Translations under genes and position numbers: made by a program
Source: a virus
Length of the DNA: 54,338 nt
Virus record (IMG/VR): IMGVR_UViG_3300017963_000063
Coordinates: 1-54,338 of that record
Reading direction: 5' to 3' (one strand)
In this document: positions 30,852-47,876 of the stretch, one piece after another
Position numbering within the stretch: position 1 is the first letter of the stretch
How the letters are laid out: every line of letters begins with the position of its first letter
The notes under the pieces: model-generated
Told to the model about the DNA's origin: nothing
Database searches by the model: none
Seen by the model: the letters and a program-made list of their open reading frames with translations, nothing else

Positions 30852-31176
30852 TCTTCCAGACCTACCGCTAGACCCGCCGGAGGAGCGCCCCATCAAGTGG
30901 CCCGGAGAACGCGAGCAGCTGTGCGACCAGTGCGGGAACGGCGAAGCGCTGCGAGCCTGCTACAAGTGCGGCATGTTCTGCTGCCTGGAGTGCCTGAGCG
31001 AGGGCGAGCTTCATTTGTGCCGCGACTGCGAGGGGCTGACGGGGCATACGCTCATAGCATCGCTCCTGGCTGCACGGGACAGGGAGTTTCGGCAGGGTGG
31101 TGCGTTGACCGCGACCGTCGTGGATCGCGTGTTTGCTGGTTGGGAGAAGGACGATGCTGGCGAAGGCCGAGTATGA
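30844..31176 (+). CDS. B-box/treble-clef-like zinc protein
   Basis: 110 residues from ATG 30844. Eight cysteines in the arrangement C-x2-C-x9-C-x2-C-x4-C-x2-C-...-C-x2-C around residues 27-62 (CDQC, CYKC, CLEC, CRDC) suggest two zinc sites of a B-box or similar treble-clef finger. The C-terminal 45 residues are helical. It overlaps the following gene. Possible protein- or nucleic-acid-binding adaptor; role unknown. Confidence 0.55.
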   Translation: MPDLPDLPLDPPEERPIKWPGEREQLCDQCGNGEALRACYKCGMFCCLECLSEGELHLCRDCEGLTGHTLIASLLAARDREFRQGGALTATVVDRVFAGWEKDDAGEGRV

Positions 31177-31633
31177 CGCAATCGTAGACGCCGCCGAGCG
31201 TGCTGACGCGTGCAGCGAGGCTATTGCCTGGGCGCGTAAGCGGCAGCGCACCGTGGCGGAACTGTCGCCCGAGTGGGCGTACTGGCTGCGCCGCTTCTGT
31301 TCGGACCTGCCGGAAGAGGTTAAGCGCGCGGCCGAGGCCAAGGCGCTGACCGAGCCAGAGTGGGCGTACTGGCTGCGCTGCTTCTGTTCGGACCTGCCGG
31401 AAGGGGTCAAGCGCGCAGCCGAGGCTAAGGCGCTGACCGAGCCAGAGTGGGCCTGCTGGCTGCGCCGCTCCTGTTCGGACCTGCCGGAAGAGGTTAAGCG
31501 CGCAGCCGAGGCTAAGGCGCTGACCAAGCCGAAGTGGGCGTACTTGCTGCGCCGCTCCTGTTCGGGCCTGCCGGAAGAGGTCAAGCGCGCGGCCGAGGCC
31601 GAACACGCCGCCCTCGCGCCGGAGGCTGAGTGA
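31154..31633 (+). CDS. Protein of tandem 29-residue helical repeats
   Basis: 159 residues. After ~39 residues come three complete near-identical 29-residue units (E/K-WAYWLR..CSDLPEEVKRAAE pattern ending AKALTEP) and a partial fourth. Each unit predicts two short helices joined by SDLPEE, which would stack as an alpha-solenoid. Start chosen at ATG 31154, with GGAG upstream; 31133 is an alternative. The high identity between units points to recent expansion by slippage or recombination. Protein binding is the usual role of such folds; the partner is unknown. Confidence 0.6.
   Translation: MLAKAEYDAIVDAAERADACSEAIAWARKRQRTVAELSPEWAYWLRRFCSDLPEEVKRAAEAKALTEPEWAYWLRCFCSDLPEGVKRAAEAKALTEPEWACWLRRSCSDLPEEVKRAAEAKALTKPKWAYLLRRSCSGLPEEVKRAAEAEHAALAPEAE
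31271..31602 (+). repeat. 87-bp tandem repeats, 3.8 copies
   Basis: Units begin at 31271, 31358, 31445 and 31532. The first three are complete; the fourth diverges after about 70 bases. The unit length is a multiple of three and keeps the reading frame of the gene at 31154-31633. Copy number could vary between related phages. Confidence 0.85.
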
Positions 31634-31927: not shown

Positions 31928-32980
31928 ATGAATGAGTTGGCACTATTTACAGGCGTTGGTGGTGGACTTCTCGGAACCCGACTTCTCGGCTGGCGATGCG
32001 TCTGCGCCGTGGAAATCGAACCGTACTGCCGGGAAGTCCTCCTGCGGCGCCAGCGGGACGGTATGCTTGACCTGTTTCCGATCTGGGACGACATCCGAAC
32101 CTTCGACGGCAGACCCTGGCGTGGCCTCGTGGATATCGTCACTGGCGGCTTCCCGTGCCAGCCGTTCAGCGTTGCAGGCCAGCGACGTGGCGAAGATGAC
32201 GAACGCAATATGTGGCCCGAAACCATCCGAGTCATTCGCGAAGTGGGACCGCGATTCGCGCTGCTGGAGAACGTACCAGGGCTGCTTGTTCACCCGTACT
32301 TTGGAACCATACTCGGAGACCTGGCCGAGAGCGGGTATCGCGTTCGATGGGATTGTATCCCTGCGTCAGCCGTTGGCGCCCCGCACATCAGGGACCGTCT
32401 GTTCATACTCGCCCGATGGAGCGGAGGTGCCGCCAGCGCCGAGTTCGGAAGTGTACTGGCCAACCCCCGACGCGACGGGCAGCAACACGCTGGAGAACCG
32501 GCACTGCCACGACAGGATACGCCCGACGCTGGGGAAGGCTGCGAGGATGTGGCCAACGCCGCGAGCTCGGGATGCAGGAGGAGCGCTTGCCGGCAGCAAG
32601 GCCACGATAAACGAGGTGGGCCGAATGGTCCGTCCAAGCGGGCAGGACTTCAGCGTGCCGTTGTGCGAAGCGGTGAAGATGTGGCCGACCCCAACGAGCG
32701 GGGACGGGCTGGCAACGGCTGTCTCGCGCCTCCTCCCGACGATGACGGCGCGAGACAGCCGAACGATCAAGGGCAACGTGCCACCGCCGAACCATCAGGG
32801 CGGGGTATCGTTGACGCAGACAATCGCCTCTCCGCAGCAGAGTGGTGGCCTGAACCCGCCGTGGGTCGAGTGGCTGATGGGGTTCCCCATCGGGTGGACC
32901 GACTTAAGGGACTTGGCAATGCCCAGGTTCCAGCAGTGGTTAGAGCAGTTTGGGAACTGATGGGCAACGTCCGACAATAG
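31928..32980 (+). CDS. C5-cytosine DNA methyltransferase
   Basis: 350 residues with the ordered motifs of the Dcm family: motif I 'LALFTGVGGG' (residues ~4-13), motif IV with catalytic Cys77 in 'GGFPCQPFS', motif VI 'ENV' (114-116), motif VIII-like 'GAPHIRDRLFIL', and motif X 'GLGNAQVPAV' near the C-terminus. Between them (about 165-300) is a variable target-recognition region with three 'V-A-N/D-P/A' segments. It would methylate cytosine C5 in double-stranded DNA, probably protecting phage DNA. Its frame is open from end to end; a second frame is open over almost the same DNA (31932-32960). Confidence 0.9.
   Translation: MNELALFTGVGGGLLGTRLLGWRCVCAVEIEPYCREVLLRRQRDGMLDLFPIWDDIRTFDGRPWRGLVDIVTGGFPCQPFSVAGQRRGEDDERNMWPETIRVIREVGPRFALLENVPGLLVHPYFGTILGDLAESGYRVRWDCIPASAVGAPHIRDRLFILARWSGGAASAEFGSVLANPRRDGQQHAGEPALPRQDTPDAGEGCEDVANAASSGCRRSACRQQGHDKRGGPNGPSKRAGLQRAVVRSGEDVADPNERGRAGNGCLAPPPDDDGARQPNDQGQRATAEPSGRGIVDADNRLSAAEWWPEPAVGRVADGVPHRVDRLKGLGNAQVPAVVRAVWELMGNVRQ
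31932..32960 (+). CDS. Second, overlapping frame inside the methyltransferase gene
   Basis: 342 codons open in the +1 frame, starting at an ATG four bases after the methyltransferase ATG (ATGAATG) and ending 20 bases before its stop. It is not random in character: it begins MSWHYLQ, has 'YSETWPRAGI' then 'PLAPRTSGT', three spaced WPTP words (VYWPTPDATG, MWPTPRARDA, MWPTPTSGDG), and ends 'LNPPWVEWLMGFPIGWTDL'. I recall these strings as a recurrent phage protein, often labelled methyltransferase. That could mean real dual coding or repeated mis-annotation of the same +1 frame. Expression is unproven. Confidence 0.45.
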   Translation: MSWHYLQALVVDFSEPDFSAGDASAPWKSNRTAGKSSCGASGTVCLTCFRSGTTSEPSTADPGVASWISSLAASRASRSALQASDVAKMTNAICGPKPSESFAKWDRDSRCWRTYQGCLFTRTLEPYSETWPRAGIAFDGIVSLRQPLAPRTSGTVCSYSPDGAEVPPAPSSEVYWPTPDATGSNTLENRHCHDRIRPTLGKAARMWPTPRARDAGGALAGSKATINEVGRMVRPSGQDFSVPLCEAVKMWPTPTSGDGLATAVSRLLPTMTARDSRTIKGNVPPPNHQGGVSLTQTIASPQQSGGLNPPWVEWLMGFPIGWTDLRDLAMPRFQQWLEQFGN

Positions 32981-34238: not shown

Positions 34239-34607
34239 TTGAGACCAGCAACGTGGACAGATCGGCGAGCATCCGCGCACGGCGACTTGTCGAGTCGGTA
34301 CATCGACGAGGCCATGAGCAGCCGCTGCTTTGCCGTCATGGCTGTCGCACTGCCTTGCTGCAAGCCGCACGAACTGCCGCGGAAGCCGGATTACGAATAT
34401 GAAGACTTTGGGTGCTGGTCACCCAAGAGAACGGTCAAGGTGTGGCTGCCGACGAAGCCCGAGCGCGTGACGTACAGGTGTCCGGTGTGCGGGTACATGC
34501 GCACGTTTAGTGCAGCCGAACTGACCACCTTGCGCGCGGCTGGACGTATACCCCGGTGTTCGCGCGCGGGACACAGGCGCGGCGTCGCGATGAAGCCGAT
34601 GGAGTAG
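34239..34607 (+). CDS. Small zinc-ribbon-like protein
   Basis: 122 residues from TTG 34239 with AGGAG six bases upstream. 'CPVCGYMRTFSAAELTTL' (residues ~81-98) plus a later Cys/His (CSRAGH) looks like a zinc ribbon; CC at about 40 may contribute. The rare start codon is chosen because no ATG fits the ribosome-binding site. Function unknown. Confidence 0.45.
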   Translation: MRPATWTDRRASAHGDLSSRYIDEAMSSRCFAVMAVALPCCKPHELPRKPDYEYEDFGCWSPKRTVKVWLPTKPERVTYRCPVCGYMRTFSAAELTTLRAAGRIPRCSRAGHRRGVAMKPME

Positions 34608-34610
34608 CCG

Positions 34611-34829
34611 ATGACAGCCAAGACCGCCGAACGAATGATGCACGTAACCATGCAGTTGCCGGCTGCCAAGGTGGCCGCCATTGACGAGTTTGGCGAGCTG
34701 CTTGTGCCGGGGTCCGACAGCCGCGCTGCGAGCATCCGCACGCTGATAGACATAGCGTTGGCGTCCAAGGCGAAGCAGATTGCGAAGGCTCGGGCCGCGA
34801 AACTGGGGTCGGGGAGCGCGAAGGGATGA
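34611..34829 (+). CDS. Ribbon-helix-helix DNA-binding protein
   Basis: 72 residues. A strand 'MHVTMQLP' is followed by two helices ('AAKVAAIDEFGELL' and 'SRAASIRTLIDIALASK'), the arrangement of CopG/MetJ-type ribbon-helix-helix regulators, with SR at the start of helix 2 and a basic tail. Such proteins bind operator DNA as dimers with the strand in the major groove. It lies just upstream of the strongest promoter in the window (35035), so it may regulate the recombination operon or itself. Fold from pattern; target inferred. Confidence 0.6.
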   Translation: MTAKTAERMMHVTMQLPAAKVAAIDEFGELLVPGSDSRAASIRTLIDIALASKAKQIAKARAAKLGSGSAKG

Positions 34830-34830
34830 C

Positions 34831-35052
34831 GTGGCTAGGTTCTGGTCCTCTATCGTTGACCTCCGCGTGGGCTGCAACAGGTGCGGCAACTGCGGGCAAC
34901 CTTTGGACCCGGACGGATGGGCACCAGTGAACCGTGGTCGTATAGAGTGCTGCCGTCGCCCACCAGATGTTGTGGCACCAGATGCAGTGCATCGAAGAGC
35001 GCACGACTGCCAGGGAGATTGGCTGAGAAAACACTTGACAGGTTCCGAATAA
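34831..35052 (+). CDS. Small cysteine-rich protein
   Basis: 73 residues from GTG 34831 with AGGGA six bases upstream, next to the regulator stop. CNRCGNCG (residues ~15-22) and 'RIECC' could form a zinc knuckle. The end of the gene (35035-35052) overlaps the -35 region of the next promoter. Weak composition evidence, so moderate confidence. Confidence 0.4.
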   Translation: MARFWSSIVDLRVGCNRCGNCGQPLDPDGWAPVNRGRIECCRRPPDVVAPDAVHRRAHDCQGDWLRKHLTGSE

Positions 35053-35063
35053 TGTGTTAGGCT
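35035..35063 (+). promoter_or_regulatory. Strong sigma70-type promoter of the recombination operon
   Basis: TTGACA (35035-35040), 17-base spacer, TAGGCT (35058-35063); transcription expected from about 35069-35071, exactly where the first arm of the structured leader begins. A consensus -35 with ideal spacing makes this the most convincing promoter seen in the window. It lies after the ribbon-helix-helix regulator gene. Confidence 0.75.
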
Positions 35064-35070
35064 GAACAGT

Positions 35071-35192
35071 GAAAGGCGATGAGGCTGTGAACCCCTCACT
35101 GACCAACCGATACGTGGCCCCCGGAGGCCCTTCGATGGATGCCTGTCCGCAATACCGGCTTCATCGCCTTTCAACCTCCGGGGGCCTGTTTT
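35071..35192 (+). ncRNA. Structured leader with interleaved 12-bp stems and U-tract
   Basis: Stem A: GAAAGGCGATGA (35071-35082) pairs perfectly with TCATCGCCTTTC (35161-35172). Stem B: GGCCCCCGGAGG (35116-35127) pairs perfectly with CCTCCGGGGGCC (35175-35186). The order A-B-A'-B' is that of an H-type pseudoknot, with 33-base loops on either side of B and 2 bases between A' and B'. B' is followed by TGTTTTTG, so B:B' is also a terminator hairpin. A tiny frame ATG AGG CTG TGA (35079-35090) begins inside arm A. It may be an attenuator, a small RNA or a DNA-level site. Stems are seen; function is inferred. Confidence 0.65.
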
Positions 35193-35207
35193 TGTTGGAG
35201 CGTGACA

Positions 35208-36449
35208 ATGCCAGATAGCACTACCGAACCACTACGGATCATCTACCTTGAAGCGGAGAACGTAAAGCGCCTGAAGGCTGTGCGGATCAAGCCGGACAAG
35301 ACGCTGGTGCGGATAGAGGGTCGCAATGCGCAGGGCAAAACCAGCGTCATCGACGCTATCTGCGCGTGCCTGGGCGGCGGGAAATGGCAGCCCGAGAAGC
35401 CCGTTCGTGAAGGCGAGAAGAAGGCCCGAGTATCGGTAGACCTTGGTGATCTTCAGGTCGAACGTCGCTGGACGGCCCGGGGTGGCACTACGTTAGAGGT
35501 AACGGCCAACGGGGACAGGCAGGCTACGCCGCAGGCTATCCTCGACAAGCTGGTAGGTGACCTGACATTCGATCCGCTGGCGTTCGTTCGCATGAAGTCC
35601 AAGGATCAGGCGGACATTCTACGTCGCCTTGCGGGGATAGATTTCGCCGACCTTGATGCCAAGAGGCAGGGGCTGTACGACGCTCGCACGGTGGCCAACC
35701 GCGAGGCAAAGTCCGCCGAAGCCCGTCGTGGACCGATGCCGGCGAAGCCCAAGTCCGATAAGCCGATTGACGTGAGGGAGTTGGCCCATAGGCAACAAGT
35801 CGCCATCACGCACAACCGCGAGGTGCAAAACGCGAGAGACGCGGCGGACCGCGCTGCTGGCGAATTGAAGGTCGCGCAAAAGACACTGGCGAACGCGCAG
35901 GCTCGCGTTGAAGAGGCCGCAGAACAAGCCAAGGTTGCACAGGAACACGCACAGAGCATGACTCCGCAGGACGTGGGCGATCTTGGTGCCGAGCTTGTAG
36001 CGGCTGAAGAACACAACAAGGCGATCGCCGAGTGGGCGGCATGGGAAAAGCGGGACGCTGAGGCTGTCGAGCTGGAGAAAATGGCCGAGAGTTACACGGA
36101 TCAGATAGAGGCCCTGGACGCCGAAAAGGCCAAGACTTTGCAGGAGGCGAGTTTTCCGCTTGCTGGCCTGAGCCTTGATGCTAACGGCGTGTGTTTGGGC
36201 GGCGTCCCGTTTGCACAAGCATCGTCCGCCGAGCAGTTACGGTGCGGAGTCGCTATCGGGCTAGCCCAGCGGAAGCGGGCGCGGCTTGGGTTTATCCGTG
36301 ACGGATCGTTGCTGGATGCCGACAACCTGCAACTTCTACACGATATTGCTGCGGAGTACGATGCCCAAATCTTTGTTGAGCGTGTAGCGGAGTCTCCTGA
36401 CGCCAGCGCAGTTTACATCGAAGATGGAGAAATCATCGATGCCGACTAA
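35208..36449 (+). CDS. SMC/Rad50-like ATPase
   Basis: 413 residues from ATG 35208, GGAG 7 bases upstream. An N-terminal half-site has 'IYLEAENVKRLKAVRI' followed by Walker A 'GRNAQGKTS' (38-46). A coiled-coil arm spans about 150-290 (Ala/Glu/Lys-rich). The C-terminal part has an ABC-signature-like 'SSAEQLRCGVAIGLAQ' and a Walker-B-like 'LGFIRDGSLLD'. This is the layout of RecF/Rad50/SMC ATPases acting on DNA ends, usually with a nuclease; small phage members lie next to ERF and exonuclease genes as here. It opens the recombination operon behind the structured leader. Confidence 0.7.
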   Translation: MPDSTTEPLRIIYLEAENVKRLKAVRIKPDKTLVRIEGRNAQGKTSVIDAICACLGGGKWQPEKPVREGEKKARVSVDLGDLQVERRWTARGGTTLEVTANGDRQATPQAILDKLVGDLTFDPLAFVRMKSKDQADILRRLAGIDFADLDAKRQGLYDARTVANREAKSAEARRGPMPAKPKSDKPIDVRELAHRQQVAITHNREVQNARDAADRAAGELKVAQKTLANAQARVEEAAEQAKVAQEHAQSMTPQDVGDLGAELVAAEEHNKAIAEWAAWEKRDAEAVELEKMAESYTDQIEALDAEKAKTLQEASFPLAGLSLDANGVCLGGVPFAQASSAEQLRCGVAIGLAQRKRARLGFIRDGSLLDADNLQLLHDIAAEYDAQIFVERVAESPDASAVYIEDGEIIDAD

Positions 36450-37227
36450 CCCCGAACCTGCGATAGTGAAGGCCGAACCCGGCACGCTGGCGGAAGCGTC
36501 GTCGCTGATGCACATGGCCGTAGAGCGTGGCTTAGACATGCAGGCGGCCTGGGAAGTCTACGAGAGGGCGTGTCGCTTCGACTCAGTGAAGCAGTATAAC
36601 GCAGCCATGACGGCGTTCCACCTGGAATGCCCATCCATGCCAAGAACTGGGCGCCATGCTGGCGTAAAGCGGCTAACTGCCCGCGGCGTCAAAGAGCCCG
36701 CTTCATACACCACCCTTGAGGACATCGACGAAACAATTGACCCGATTCTCAAGTCGCTCGGTCTCTCCTACGACTGGGAAGATACAAAAATACAGGAGAT
36801 CAGCGGCAAGCCGTGGTTTCAGGTGTCGCTTCGCATCAGGCACACAGGCGGGCATTCCGAGATAAAGACTGGGCAGTGGATACCAATGGGTACGCAGGAC
36901 CTTCAACCGGCCGACTTGGCTGGGGCCGCGCAAAGCCGAGCCAGAAGGATGGCCCTGATTCACGGGTTTGGGCTGAGCTCAGTGGCTGCCGACGAGGCGG
37001 ACATGCCCCCGCCCGGTGAGCCGATGACGGAGGAGAACGCCCGGCAGATCACCGAGTTGTTGGACGGCCTGGGGCACGTCACTGACGCTGCCAATCGATC
37101 CGCTTGGGAGCGGCGGATATTCGAGCGGTTCAGCGTGGAGTCCGTTGACCAGCTACCCGCCGACAAGTTCGACGAGATTGCGTCGAAGATTCAGGCGGGG
37201 ATCGACAAGGCGAAGGGCGGGCCATGA
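36439..37227 (+). CDS. erf: ERF-family single-strand annealing protein
   Basis: 262 residues. ERF motifs are visible: 'YNAAMTAFHLECPSMPRTG' near residue 55, 'YTTLEDIDETIDPILKSLGL' near 95, 'GHSEIKTG' and 'PADLAGAAQSRARRMAL...GFGL', which corresponds to the usual G-x-x-x-T/S-Y-x-R-R-Y-x-L segment. ERF proteins anneal complementary single strands during circularisation and recombination. The C-terminal ~60 residues are helical. The start at 36439 has GGAGA about 8 bases upstream and overlaps the preceding gene; ATG 36424 is an alternative. Partner exonuclease is encoded two genes downstream. Confidence 0.8.
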   Translation: MPTNPEPAIVKAEPGTLAEASSLMHMAVERGLDMQAAWEVYERACRFDSVKQYNAAMTAFHLECPSMPRTGRHAGVKRLTARGVKEPASYTTLEDIDETIDPILKSLGLSYDWEDTKIQEISGKPWFQVSLRIRHTGGHSEIKTGQWIPMGTQDLQPADLAGAAQSRARRMALIHGFGLSSVAADEADMPPPGEPMTEENARQITELLDGLGHVTDAANRSAWERRIFERFSVESVDQLPADKFDEIASKIQAGIDKAKGGP

Positions 37228-37634
37228 GTGCGCGGCGCGTATACAACTTGGTTGACTTCTTTGAGTTGCTGGGCGTCACGTTTGCCACGGATTGGGATGG
37301 TGAGGTAGAGGCGACGTATCCCGAGTCGGTGCCCATAGAACTGCTGCGTTCTCTTGTGGAGGACTACACTGACGAGATACGACGAAGGATGGAATTTCGT
37401 CGCCGGCGTGCCATGCAGGTGTGCGTAGGCGGTGGGACGCTGAATGGCCAAAGGCACAGCAAGTTCTGGCCGCAGCTAATTTGCAAGCATCTAGGCAGGG
37501 CGCGGTGGGAAGTGTACGCCATAGCGCGTGATGGCCGGGCTTTCTATTGCGGCGAAGCAAGCAGCCAGCAGAAAGCGCGTCGGCTCGCCGCTGCACGCAG
37601 GGCACACGAGGCAGCGGGGCAAACGAAGCCATGA
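37224..37634 (+). CDS. Unknown basic protein between ERF and exonuclease genes
   Basis: 136 residues, overlapping both neighbours by 4 bases. A helical, Arg-rich middle (EIRRRMEFRRRRAMQ) and a later 'WEVYAIARDGRAFYCGEASS' segment that looks like a small alpha/beta DNA-binding domain. Its place between annealing protein and nuclease suggests an accessory role in recombination. No family recognised. Confidence 0.5.
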   Translation: MSARRVYNLVDFFELLGVTFATDWDGEVEATYPESVPIELLRSLVEDYTDEIRRRMEFRRRRAMQVCVGGGTLNGQRHSKFWPQLICKHLGRARWEVYAIARDGRAFYCGEASSQQKARRLAAARRAHEAAGQTKP

Positions 37635-38419
37635 TCGTCCACGATTGCCAGCAGGGCTCAGACCAGTGGAAGGACTTCCACATCGGCACGATCAGCGCGT
37701 CGAGCGTGGACAAGATCGTGACGCCCAAGACGCGGAAGCCGTCCACGCAGGTACGGGGCCTCGTCAACCGGCTGGTGGCCGAATTGATGACCGGCGAGTG
37801 TCTGATCGACGATGGGACCACGCAGTTCATGGAGCGGGGGTTGAAACTGGAGGCTCAAGCCCGGGCCGATTACGCCTGGGACCACGACGTGGACGTGCAG
37901 GAGGTCGGTTTCGTCACTACCGACGATGGGCTGTGCGGCGGGAGTCCTGACGGGCTGATCGGGGATGACGGCGGCCTGGAGATCAAGGTCCCCGGTCCGA
38001 TTGTCCATGTCGGCTACATGCGAGACCCGCAGCGGCTCGCCAACGACTACCACTCGCAAGTCCAGTGCTACCTGTGGATTACGGAACGCCGCTGGTGGGA
38101 CATTCTGTCGTGGAACCGGCCGGGCGGGCTTCCTGACGTGATCTACACGGTGGAGCGTGACGAGCAGTACATTGATGCTTTAGCCGAGGCTGTTCGCATA
38201 GTGGCGGCTGAGGTGGAGTCGATTCTGGTGCGGTTCGGCTATCGGCCGCCAGGGGGCGTTTTTAAGCCGCTGGTGGATTCTGGCGGGTCCGAGGGCGTCG
38301 GGGCGGATTCATCGCCAGGCGCGGCGTCTGAGGCCCCTTCAGCGGCAAGCTGTGGCGGGCAGGCTGGCGGCGGGGACGAGCTAGGGAGTAGGACCAGCGT
38401 GCAGGGAGGCAGTGCGTAA
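37631..38419 (+). CDS. YqaJ/lambda-type exonuclease
   Basis: 262 residues. The PD-(D/E)xK core is visible: Asp107 in 'GGSPDGLIGD', Glu117-x-Lys119 in 'GGLEIKVP', then 'YHSQVQCYLWIT', the conserved Q-containing helix of YqaJ/lambda exonuclease. The N-terminal 'QGSDQWKDFHIGTISAS' is the usual opening. The enzyme resects 5' ends of double-stranded DNA, feeding the ERF annealing protein. The last ~50 residues are a low-complexity Gly/Ser/Ala tail not needed for catalysis. Confidence 0.8.
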   Translation: MIVHDCQQGSDQWKDFHIGTISASSVDKIVTPKTRKPSTQVRGLVNRLVAELMTGECLIDDGTTQFMERGLKLEAQARADYAWDHDVDVQEVGFVTTDDGLCGGSPDGLIGDDGGLEIKVPGPIVHVGYMRDPQRLANDYHSQVQCYLWITERRWWDILSWNRPGGLPDVIYTVERDEQYIDALAEAVRIVAAEVESILVRFGYRPPGGVFKPLVDSGGSEGVGADSSPGAASEAPSAASCGGQAGGGDELGSRTSVQGGSA

Positions 38420-39290
38420 GGCTAGGCTGGGGCGGTGGCTGCCGCGTGATGTGGCTGCCGCCCTGGCCGCCTGGCTAGCTAGACCGATGGCCCAGATCAG
38501 AGACGAGGCAACTTGGCCCGAACCCACCTGGCAGTGCCCCGGCGTGCGGCTGTACCTGGGCGACTGCCTGGAGGTGCTGCCGACCTTCCCTGACGCCAGC
38601 GTGCCCATGATCTGGACTGATCCTCCATTTGGACACGGCAACATGCAGGACGATCTCCAGGCGGCGCGGGTGCGTGACGGTGTACTGGGCGCACGGCGGG
38701 CTGACGTGCAGCCCATTGCAAACGATACCGGGGAGGGCTTTGAGCGAATACTGACAGGCTTCTTGGACGAGGCCACGCGGCTACTGACGCCCGACTGCTG
38801 CTGCTGCTGCTGCTGCGGCGGCGGCGGCGGCGGGCCGCAGCCCACCTTCGCGCGTGTGGCGAAGTGGATCGACGAGCGGCTTGAGTTCTTCCATGCCGTC
38901 GTGTGGGACAAGTCTGCGCGGGGCAATGGGATGGGCTGGCGCTACCGGCGGAACTATGAGTTCGTGATGGTGGCGCATCGGCGCGGCGGCACGCTGTTGT
39001 GGCAAGAGGGGGCGCCTGCGATTCCTAACGTGCTGCGCGACATGCCGGTTGCGGATCGCCAGCACCCTAACGAGAAGCCGCTGGCGCTGGTTAAGCGCTT
39101 CTTGGGTGTGCATGGGAACGGTGGCGGGCTCGTCCTCGACCCCTTCATGGGTTCCGGCACAACCGGCGTGGCCTGCGTCCAGCTCGGCCGCGAGTTCGTC
39201 GGCATCGAGATCGAGCCTAAGTATTTCGACATCGCGGTCACGAGAATCGACCAGGAGCGCCGGCAGGGGAGGCTGGAGTTCGGGCCATGA
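38412..39290 (+). CDS. Amino-methyltransferase (N4-cytosine or N6-adenine), beta class order
   Basis: 292 residues from GTG 38412; ATG 38487 (268 residues) is an alternative. Catalytic motif IV is 'TDPPF' (69-73), then near residue 240 'DPFMGSGTTGVACVQLGREF' gives motif I with GIEIEP following. IV before I is the order of class beta enzymes. It methylates an exocyclic amino group in DNA. A run of seven Cys and six Gly codons (38796-38834) lies in a loop between the motifs; I recall similar Cys/Gly runs in phage relatives. It lies with the recombination genes and may protect phage DNA. Confidence 0.8.
   Translation: MRKARLGRWLPRDVAAALAAWLARPMAQIRDEATWPEPTWQCPGVRLYLGDCLEVLPTFPDASVPMIWTDPPFGHGNMQDDLQAARVRDGVLGARRADVQPIANDTGEGFERILTGFLDEATRLLTPDCCCCCCCGGGGGGPQPTFARVAKWIDERLEFFHAVVWDKSARGNGMGWRYRRNYEFVMVAHRRGGTLLWQEGAPAIPNVLRDMPVADRQHPNEKPLALVKRFLGVHGNGGGLVLDPFMGSGTTGVACVQLGREFVGIEIEPKYFDIAVTRIDQERRQGRLEFGP
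38796..38834 (+). repeat. Trinucleotide tracts (TGC)7-(GGC)5
   Basis: Seven TGC codons (38796-38816) followed by five GGC and one GGG (38817-38834) encode seven Cys and six Gly in the methyltransferase. Triplet length keeps the frame, so slippage would change loop length, not switch the gene off. Confidence 0.9.
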
Positions 39291-41489: not shown

Positions 41490-41844
41490 GAAACGCTTTG
41501 GTGGCGAGCGAGAGCAGAACTACAACTGGCGTGGTGGGCGCGTCGTGGCATCCAATGGCTACGTGCTGCTTCGTGTAGGACAAGGCCACCATCTTGCCGA
41601 TGTGCGTGGCTATGCCTATGAGCATCGGATCATTGCCGAGCAGATGCTGGGGAGGCGGCTGCATGCACAGGAGCAGGTGCACCATCGCAAGACCGGGGCA
41701 CAGTTACGTCTGCCAGGAGAGCCGAATCCCCTTGTGTCATGCGCTTGCGGCTGTGGCCAAACCTTTGCGCGGTATGATGCCAATGGCAGGCCCCGGCGAT
41801 TTGTCTCGGGCCACAACATGCACGGAGGGGGCGATGGGAACTAA
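41479..41844 (+). CDS. HNH-endonuclease-like protein, atypical C-terminus
   Basis: 121 residues. 'NYNWRGGRVVASNGYVLLRV', 'YAYEHRIIAEQMLGRRL' and 'EQVHHRKTG' are the HNH homing-type core, in which the first HH pair binds metal. The usual continuation 'N-x-N-I-E-N-L' is missing and is replaced by 'CACGCGQTFARYDANG', a module I recall at the end of other phage HNH proteins. It may have lost nuclease activity. It overlaps the next gene by 11 bases. Confidence 0.55.
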   Translation: MATKKRFGGEREQNYNWRGGRVVASNGYVLLRVGQGHHLADVRGYAYEHRIIAEQMLGRRLHAQEQVHHRKTGAQLRLPGEPNPLVSCACGCGQTFARYDANGRPRRFVSGHNMHGGGDGN

Positions 41845-42673
41845 AATAGAATGGTGCTCCGAAGTGTGGAATGTTGTCACGGGATGCACCCCGATATCCG
41901 AAGGCTGCGAACACTGTTGGGCTGAGCGCATGGCGAAGCGGCTGCGCGGTCGGCACGGGTATCCGGCGGACGAGCCGTTTCGGGTGACGCTGCATTCGGA
42001 TCGTCTTGACCAACCTTTGTGTTGGCGGAAGCTGCGGCGCGTCTTCGTCTGCTCAATGGGCGACTTGTTCCACGCAGATGTGCCGCTAGAGTTTATCGAC
42101 GACGTGTTTCGCATGATGATGCTTGCCCCGAAGCACCAGTACCTTATTCTGACAAAACGCCCGACACGCATGTATCAGTTCGTCGTAGATTGTGAGACCG
42201 AGGCGCTCGAACGCGCATGGCTTGGCACCACCGTCGAAAGCGCCAAGCACCTTGACCGCATTGACGTGCTCCGCGACTGCCCCGCCGCCATCCGCTGGCT
42301 GAGTTGCGAGCCGCTGCTGGGGCCGCTGGATAACTTGAACCTTCAGGGTATCCATTGGGTCGTTGTCGGCGGCGAGAGCGGGCCAGGTGCGCGGCCGATG
42401 CACCCGGACTGGGCGCGCGGGGTTCGGGACCAGTGCGTGGCGGCGGGCGTGCCGTTCTTTTTCAAGCAGTGGGGACAATGGCAGCCCTGGGCAGACACAT
42501 ACACGCGCCAGGCGGGTTGGCGGTATGTATCTTATCGCGATGGCCTGGCAAGAGTCGGACCACCAGAAGACAGGGATGCCGCCATGCAAACAGTCGGCAA
42601 GAAGGCCGCCGGTCGGATACTTGATGGTCGGACCTGGGATCAGTACCCCGCCGCCGGCGGCGAGGGGGCGTGA
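41834..42673 (+). CDS. DUF5131 (phage Gp37/Gp68-type) protein
   Basis: 279 residues from ATG 41834 (GGAGGGG upstream). 'WNVVTGCTPISEGCEHCWAE' near the start has the C-x6-C-x2-C pattern of the phage Gp37/Gp68 family, and 'LSCEPLLGPLD' and 'VVVGGESGPGARPM' are the other hallmark segments. The cysteine triad resembles an iron-sulfur ligand set. The family is widespread in phages and its biochemical role is not settled. It lies in the small-gene region with other nucleic-acid-related genes. Confidence 0.75.
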   Translation: MGTKIEWCSEVWNVVTGCTPISEGCEHCWAERMAKRLRGRHGYPADEPFRVTLHSDRLDQPLCWRKLRRVFVCSMGDLFHADVPLEFIDDVFRMMMLAPKHQYLILTKRPTRMYQFVVDCETEALERAWLGTTVESAKHLDRIDVLRDCPAAIRWLSCEPLLGPLDNLNLQGIHWVVVGGESGPGARPMHPDWARGVRDQCVAAGVPFFFKQWGQWQPWADTYTRQAGWRYVSYRDGLARVGPPEDRDAAMQTVGKKAAGRILDGRTWDQYPAAGGEGA

Positions 42674-47804: not shown

Positions 47805-47876
47805 AGCGGGGTGGAGCAGCGGCAGCTCGCCGGCCCCATAAGCCGGAGATCGCGGGTTCAAATCCCGCCCCCGCCA
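47805..47876 (+). tRNA. tRNA-Met (CAT), initiator-like
   Basis: The cloverleaf is complete: acceptor GCGGGG (47806-47811) with CCCCGC (47869-47874), D arm GAGC/GCTC, anticodon stem CCGGC/GCCGG with loop CCCATAA (anticodon CAT at 47837-47839), T arm GCGGG-TTCAAAT-CCCGC. The first pair would be A1 with C72, a mismatch of the kind that marks bacterial initiator tRNAs (C1xA72). However only two of the three G:C pairs expected at the base of an initiator anticodon stem are in order, and position 33 is C in place of U. CCA is not encoded. A phage initiator-type tRNA is unusual. Confidence 0.8.

Follow-up and report, generated by a model that had tools for sequence, protein, structure and literature searches.

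The virus record IMGVR_UViG_3300017963_000063 was analysed over its whole length of 54,338 bases (the window; G+C 61.5%). Directly ahead of a run of recombination genes on the + strand, it carries two interleaved inverted repeats, which give stems of 18 and 12 bp between a promoter-like and a terminator-like sequence. The interleaved stems are real and well beyond chance. The best explanation, at somewhat less than even chances, is that the segment would act in cis as a terminated leader, an attenuator of the phage's recombination genes. The sequence is best read as specifying either such an attenuator or an independent phage small RNA; of the two, cis attenuation is somewhat more likely. The original prediction had named an attenuator, a small RNA or an operon switch, with a three-codon frame as a means of control; the attenuator and the small RNA are still the leading readings, and the control by that frame was dropped (see below). 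The features of the leader were as follows.

35035-35063, + strand: sigma70-type promoter, TTGACA-N17-TAGGCT with an extended -10 (TGT), predicted start about 35070
35070-35087, + strand: arm A, at the predicted RNA 5' end, 18 contiguous RNA pairs with 35156-35173, two of them G.U
35088-35115, + strand: linker L1, 28 nt, folding alone to 0.0 kcal/mol and hence predicted to be unstructured
35116-35127, + strand: arm B, 5' arm of the putative terminator stem, 12 perfect pairs with 35175-35186, GGAGG at 35123-35127
35128-35155, + strand: linker L2, 28 nt, with an inner arm (about 35132-35143) that is the alternative partner of A' in the nested MFE structure
35156-35173, + strand: arm A', pairing with arm A
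35175-35186, + strand: arm B', 3' arm of the putative terminator stem, containing CCTCC and pairing with arm B
35187-35196, + strand: T-run TGTTTTTGTT, predicted RNA 3' end, adjoining the 12-bp G+C-rich stem
35135-35218, + strand: possible 27-codon leader frame with GGAGG-N7-ATG, its GGAGG within arm B

The DNA itself shows the arms in their order, sequences resembling a promoter and a terminator, and how the genes are arranged. The A:A' helix has 13 pairs that are perfect in DNA and 18 pairs as RNA, including G35083.U35160 and U35086.G35157. The B:B' stem consists of 12 Watson-Crick pairs, and a single base, A35174, separates A' from B'. The two stems lie in A-B-A'-B' order within one transcript, which is the order of an H-type pseudoknot. 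Both 12-bp inverted repeats reported earlier were found at their coordinates. For arm A, the RNA helix is longer than the 12 bp reported, with 18 pairs. The loops, described as symmetric with 33 bases each, measure 33 and 33 with 12-bp arms and 28 and 28 nt with the 18-pair A stem.

The window has four perfect repeats with arms of 12 bp or more lying within 150 nt, where about 0.6-1.0 would be expected by chance. Stems of 12 bp or more were interleaved once in a first set of 60 first-order shuffled windows and in none of a second set of 600. With the threshold lowered to 10 bp, A/B was the sole interleaved pair in the window. Stems of at least 9 bp in this order, with no more than 3 nt between A' and B' and a T-run behind B', were found only here in about 1.45 Mb, comprising the window and related loci on both strands.

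The promoter motif was also unique. An exact TTGACA-N17-TANNNT occurred once in the window (35035-35063) versus 0.08 expected. The -10 box matched three of the six consensus bases, though these are the most conserved ones; a general promoter scanner missed the site because only three positions match. Transcription is predicted to start at the first or second base of arm A, in agreement with the promoter and RNA start proposed before. The U-tract that had been placed after B' and ahead of the SMC-like gene was likewise found, at 35187-35196, with the gene starting at 35208. As in intrinsic terminators, the G+C-rich stem is followed immediately by the U-run (B' ends at 35186). The hairpin loop is not short: 47 nt separate the arms, and an inner 10-bp hairpin can fill this space. 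With a terminator no more than 125 nt past the promoter and a gene after both, the arrangement points to a short RNA or an attenuated leader rather than a plain operon boundary. The arms, promoter and T-run bear out the earlier description of a promoter-proximal, structured, pseudoknot-capable RNA with a terminator-like 3' end before the recombination operon.

The window contains TerL and portal genes. Behind the leader, the + strand holds a run of recombination genes, after which come genes for a methylase and a replication initiator. The recombination genes were the following.

35208-36449, + strand: SMC/RecF/SbcC-like ATPase gene, the first after the leader (PF13476, E 3.4e-8; phrog_1499, E 8.5e-79; alignment A1)
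36424-37227, + strand: ERF single-strand annealing protein (PF04404, E 1.9e-8)
37547-38419, + strand: YqaJ/RecE-like exonuclease (PF09588, E 1.9e-16; phrog_149)

The start of the SMC-like gene at 35208 was backed by alignment with relatives. A start at 35139 was ruled out by the alignment and by a low coding score. The true start of the YqaJ/RecE-like exonuclease is probably 37631. On the 5' side of the leader, a small gene starts at 34611 and ends at 34829 with a good coding score, and an open frame at 34867-35052 scored as non-coding. Shortly ahead of where the small gene starts, positions 34587-34598 form a 12-nt exact complement of 35156-35167 in the A' region.

The two strands differ in the A helix. 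Where the DNA arms of A first fail to match, the + strand has a G.U pair and the - strand a C.A; the second wobble lengthens the + strand helix from 13 to 18 pairs. By our rough calculation, such an extension past 13 perfect pairs arises by chance in less than 1% of cases. As the wobble pairs exist on the + strand alone, they favour a + strand RNA over a DNA-level role, and they point to selection on that RNA. The minus strand has a similar nested energy, as inverted repeats predict; it lacks the T-run, and its A helix is without the two wobble pairs.

The 127-nt RNA had a pseudoknot-free fold of -51.8 kcal/mol (z -3.96), and none of 200 shuffles was as stable. The 205 nt upstream of the promoter folded in an ordinary way (z +0.58). 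In the nested fold, B:B' encloses an inner hairpin in which A' is paired with about 35132-35143; over the bases of the pseudoknot, this fold has -50.3 kcal/mol. The inner hairpin is only weakly above chance, with 73 of 1000 shuffled linkers folding as well. The stacking of both long helices together in the pseudoknot gave -68.0 kcal/mol. With a closing penalty of 10-16 kcal/mol, which is our estimate from usual values, the pseudoknot would have -52 to -58 kcal/mol and would be at least competitive with the nested fold. Pseudoknot and nested terminator are thus predicted to be of similar energy. In stepwise folding, the probability of A:A' was about 1 while the RNA end lay at 35173-35184; in the pseudoknot-free model, B:B' and the inner hairpin replaced A:A' at 35186.

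With the folding order and the similar energies of the alternatives as computed here, we infer termination, regulation and the direction of a switch in the following way. Transcription would start near 35070, and the 18-bp A:A' helix would be the first to form on the emerging RNA. B', one base past A', would then pair back with B to give a 12-bp G+C-rich intrinsic terminator stem, and RNA polymerase would be released at 35188-35196, ahead of the SMC-like gene. Arm A and the inner arm (about 35132-35143) would compete for A'. If the inner arm is paired with A', the result would be a simple nested hairpin terminator, which should work well. If A is paired with A', B could reach B' solely through a pseudoknot beside the polymerase, and termination would be slowed or weakened. 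Through this competition, a ligand of arm A, B or L1 (a protein, a ribosome or another RNA) would set the transcription of SMC-ERF-YqaJ. In a narrower form of the mechanism, a "knotted terminator", the stem of the intrinsic terminator would double as stem two of a long pseudoknot, and closure of the knot beside RNA polymerase would gate the operon. This form is drawn from structure prediction on one sequence, and we consider it unlikely.

The attenuator is favoured by the interleaved stems, the unique promoter with its start at arm A, the T-run, the stable fold, the predicted folding order and the wobble pairs, and also by a promoter standing before the terminator and a gene after it, which is unexpected at a plain operon boundary. 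Against it count the modest score of the inner hairpin among shuffled linkers and the searches for relatives, which gave no homologous leader and SMC genes that usually have none. Classical attenuators also have an alternative structure that takes up one arm of the terminator; the leader does not, since A' forms no part of the B:B' stem, and A can compete with the terminator only through the inner hairpin or through geometry. The same promoter and terminator exactly bracket the structured segment. This would also suit an independent phage small RNA of about 125 nt, made from that promoter, ended by that intrinsic terminator and acting in trans on targets of the host or the phage, or on proteins. 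The pseudoknot would then lock both ends and the open 28-nt linkers would act; transcripts of the operon would arise by readthrough or start elsewhere. The prediction for L1 is an open strand, and sealed 5' and 3' ends would make the RNA stable. However, complementary sites in the phage were not beyond chance (the best had 12 nt, at 34587-34598, and the longest expected by chance about 11.4), the terminator adjoins the ribosome-binding site of the SMC-like gene rather than another promoter, and no second promoter for the operon was seen. We regard the small RNA as rather unlikely, although it is the strongest rival of the attenuator. The leader might also be nothing more than a common terminator close to its promoter, formed by a long hairpin with bulges, the A:A' pairing being chance or a relic without a role. 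The nested hairpin alone is stable, with -42 kcal/mol without arm A, and the searches gave no homologous leader in which arm A is conserved. What makes this very improbable is a helix of 13 perfect pairs, or 18 as RNA, at the predicted 5' end, with no comparable interleaved pair in 600 shuffles.

Ribosomes or DNA-binding proteins could act on the leader instead of RNA folding alone. The three-codon frame ATG AGG CTG TGA, which had been suggested to let a ribosome disturb stem A, was located at 35079-35090. Counted from the RNA 5' end, its start codon would come at about 9 nt; AAAGG, only 2 nt from ATG 35079, leaves it without a normally spaced Shine-Dalgarno sequence. It was rejected as a control element, having no usable, spaced ribosome site. 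The 27-codon frame from 35135 is the better candidate for a leader frame. If it were translated, a ribosome there would keep B from B' in a coupling of the pyrBI type, and otherwise B:B' would both hide GGAGG and end transcription. The GGAGG-N7-ATG is well spaced. GGAGG-N5-9-ATG motifs occur 20 times on the + strand and twice on the - strand of the window, a bias toward the coding strand which suggests that they are usually real starts here. The frame spans A', B' and the T-run, thus crossing the terminator, and ends 8 nt beyond the SMC start codon, with an 11-nt overlap. Its coding score is low, however: with -0.09 it ranks among the bottom 3% of true coding stretches. Work in E. coli has shown that a terminator less than 100 nt into a reading frame remains largely efficient since the ribosome cannot catch up, and that translation hardly represses such terminators unless the polymerase pauses (PMC4824070). 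RNA polymerase would therefore need to pause in the leader, and control linked to translation seems a poor prospect, on a par with the ordinary terminator. At the DNA level, A and A' could be inverted sites of a repressor or a recombination protein at the promoter, and B:B' with the T-run would be an ordinary terminator. Arm A does cover the predicted start site, and the two arms are inverted. Neither arm is a dyad by itself, though, and the two G.U pairs that extend A:A' would be meaningless to a DNA-binding protein. We judged this the least probable of the explanations.

The attenuator reading was compared with known systems. Fluoride and ZTP riboswitches have a short pseudoknot that competes with the terminator. 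These transcriptional riboswitches are described as having pseudoknot pairs and an overlapping intrinsic terminator, with the outcome decided during transcription (PMC11077080; PMC10085676). The leader could likewise form pseudoknot pairs overlapping a putative intrinsic terminator; unlike these riboswitches, it would use the second pseudoknot stem as the terminator stem, and it has no Rfam match and no known ligand pocket. The HK022 put RNA, of about 70 nt with two stem-loops, is an antiterminator at distant terminators (PMC9378689). It resembles the leader as a structured phage RNA directly 3' of an early-type promoter, but the stems of the leader are interleaved and end in a T-run. Neither the nested nor the interleaved fold of the leader gives two adjacent stem-loops of about 70 nt. 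The leader shares with pyrBI and amino-acid leader attenuators the order of promoter, short leader frame (here a candidate), terminator and operon. In those attenuators, arms pair 1:2, 2:3 and 3:4, whereas the leader arms pair 1:3 and 2:4 (A-B-A'-B'). The leader also differs in having no regulatory codon run and in that its candidate frame begins just past the 5' arm of the terminator stem. Phage-encoded intergenic small RNAs have their own promoter, a length of about 100-130 nt and a 3' terminator hairpin. The leader would be similar, with its own promoter, about 125 nt and a 3' terminator, except that its terminator stem spans a 47-nt loop, which would join a second long helix with the 5' end. 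In known leader switches, a pseudoknot is set against a terminator; here, the terminator stem would be half of the pseudoknot, and the other half would seal the RNA 5' end. If this is true, the leader would be a compact gate for a phage recombination operon and would offer a test of the effect of RNA topology on intrinsic termination. Should it be a small RNA, it would exemplify a kind of highly structured phage RNA overlooked by annotation.

Searches of phage and plasmid records gave no homologous leader, nor did exact junction or stem patterns in IMG/VR, in collections from which records very near the window may be missing. Rfam covariance models gave no match to the leader even at E up to 5, so it was not assigned to a known riboswitch or RNA family. 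Single-sequence searches with SMC, ERF, capsid and TerL yielded no close phage relatives in IMG/VR, TerL had no match among phage records, and no close SMC relative was found in genome contigs. A profile search with the SMC protein gave 160 relatives, 31-45% identical. None of these profile-found relatives had an interleaved pair just upstream of the SMC gene or a leader-like sequence. Their median gap to the preceding gene was 2 nt (140 loci in which the start could be placed; the abutment was checked in L009). As the relatives mostly lack a leader, it is no general companion of the SMC gene. In a Phycisphaeraceae contig, a cluster of overlapping palindromic repeats (TGACCGGTCA, GGTCACCCATGACC) lies downstream of an SMC-like gene (L107:5820-5986). 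It resembles a set of operator or origin sites in array.

Other features were observed elsewhere in the window. The phage carries a tRNA-Met (CAT) gene at 47805-47876 and a gene for a DUF5131 (phage Gp37/Gp68-like) protein at 41813-42673 (E 2e-98). The N6_N4 methylase gene at 38412-39290 encodes a Cys run followed by a Gly run (CCCCCCCCGGGGGG), from triplet repeats in mid-protein at about 38790-38850. A short protein with about four near-identical repeats (EWAYWLRRFCSDLPEEVKRAAEAKALT...) is encoded at 31133-31633. Two + strand frames, 31928-32980 (350 codons) and 31932-32960 (342 codons), overlap by about 1 kb. Both matched DNA methyltransferase PHROGs (phrog_363, E 3.5e-68; phrog_1008, E 8.6e-34), and Pfam DNA_methylase was matched by the frame 31928-32980 alone. 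The overlapping frames may reflect dual coding or a family name derived from overlapping genes.
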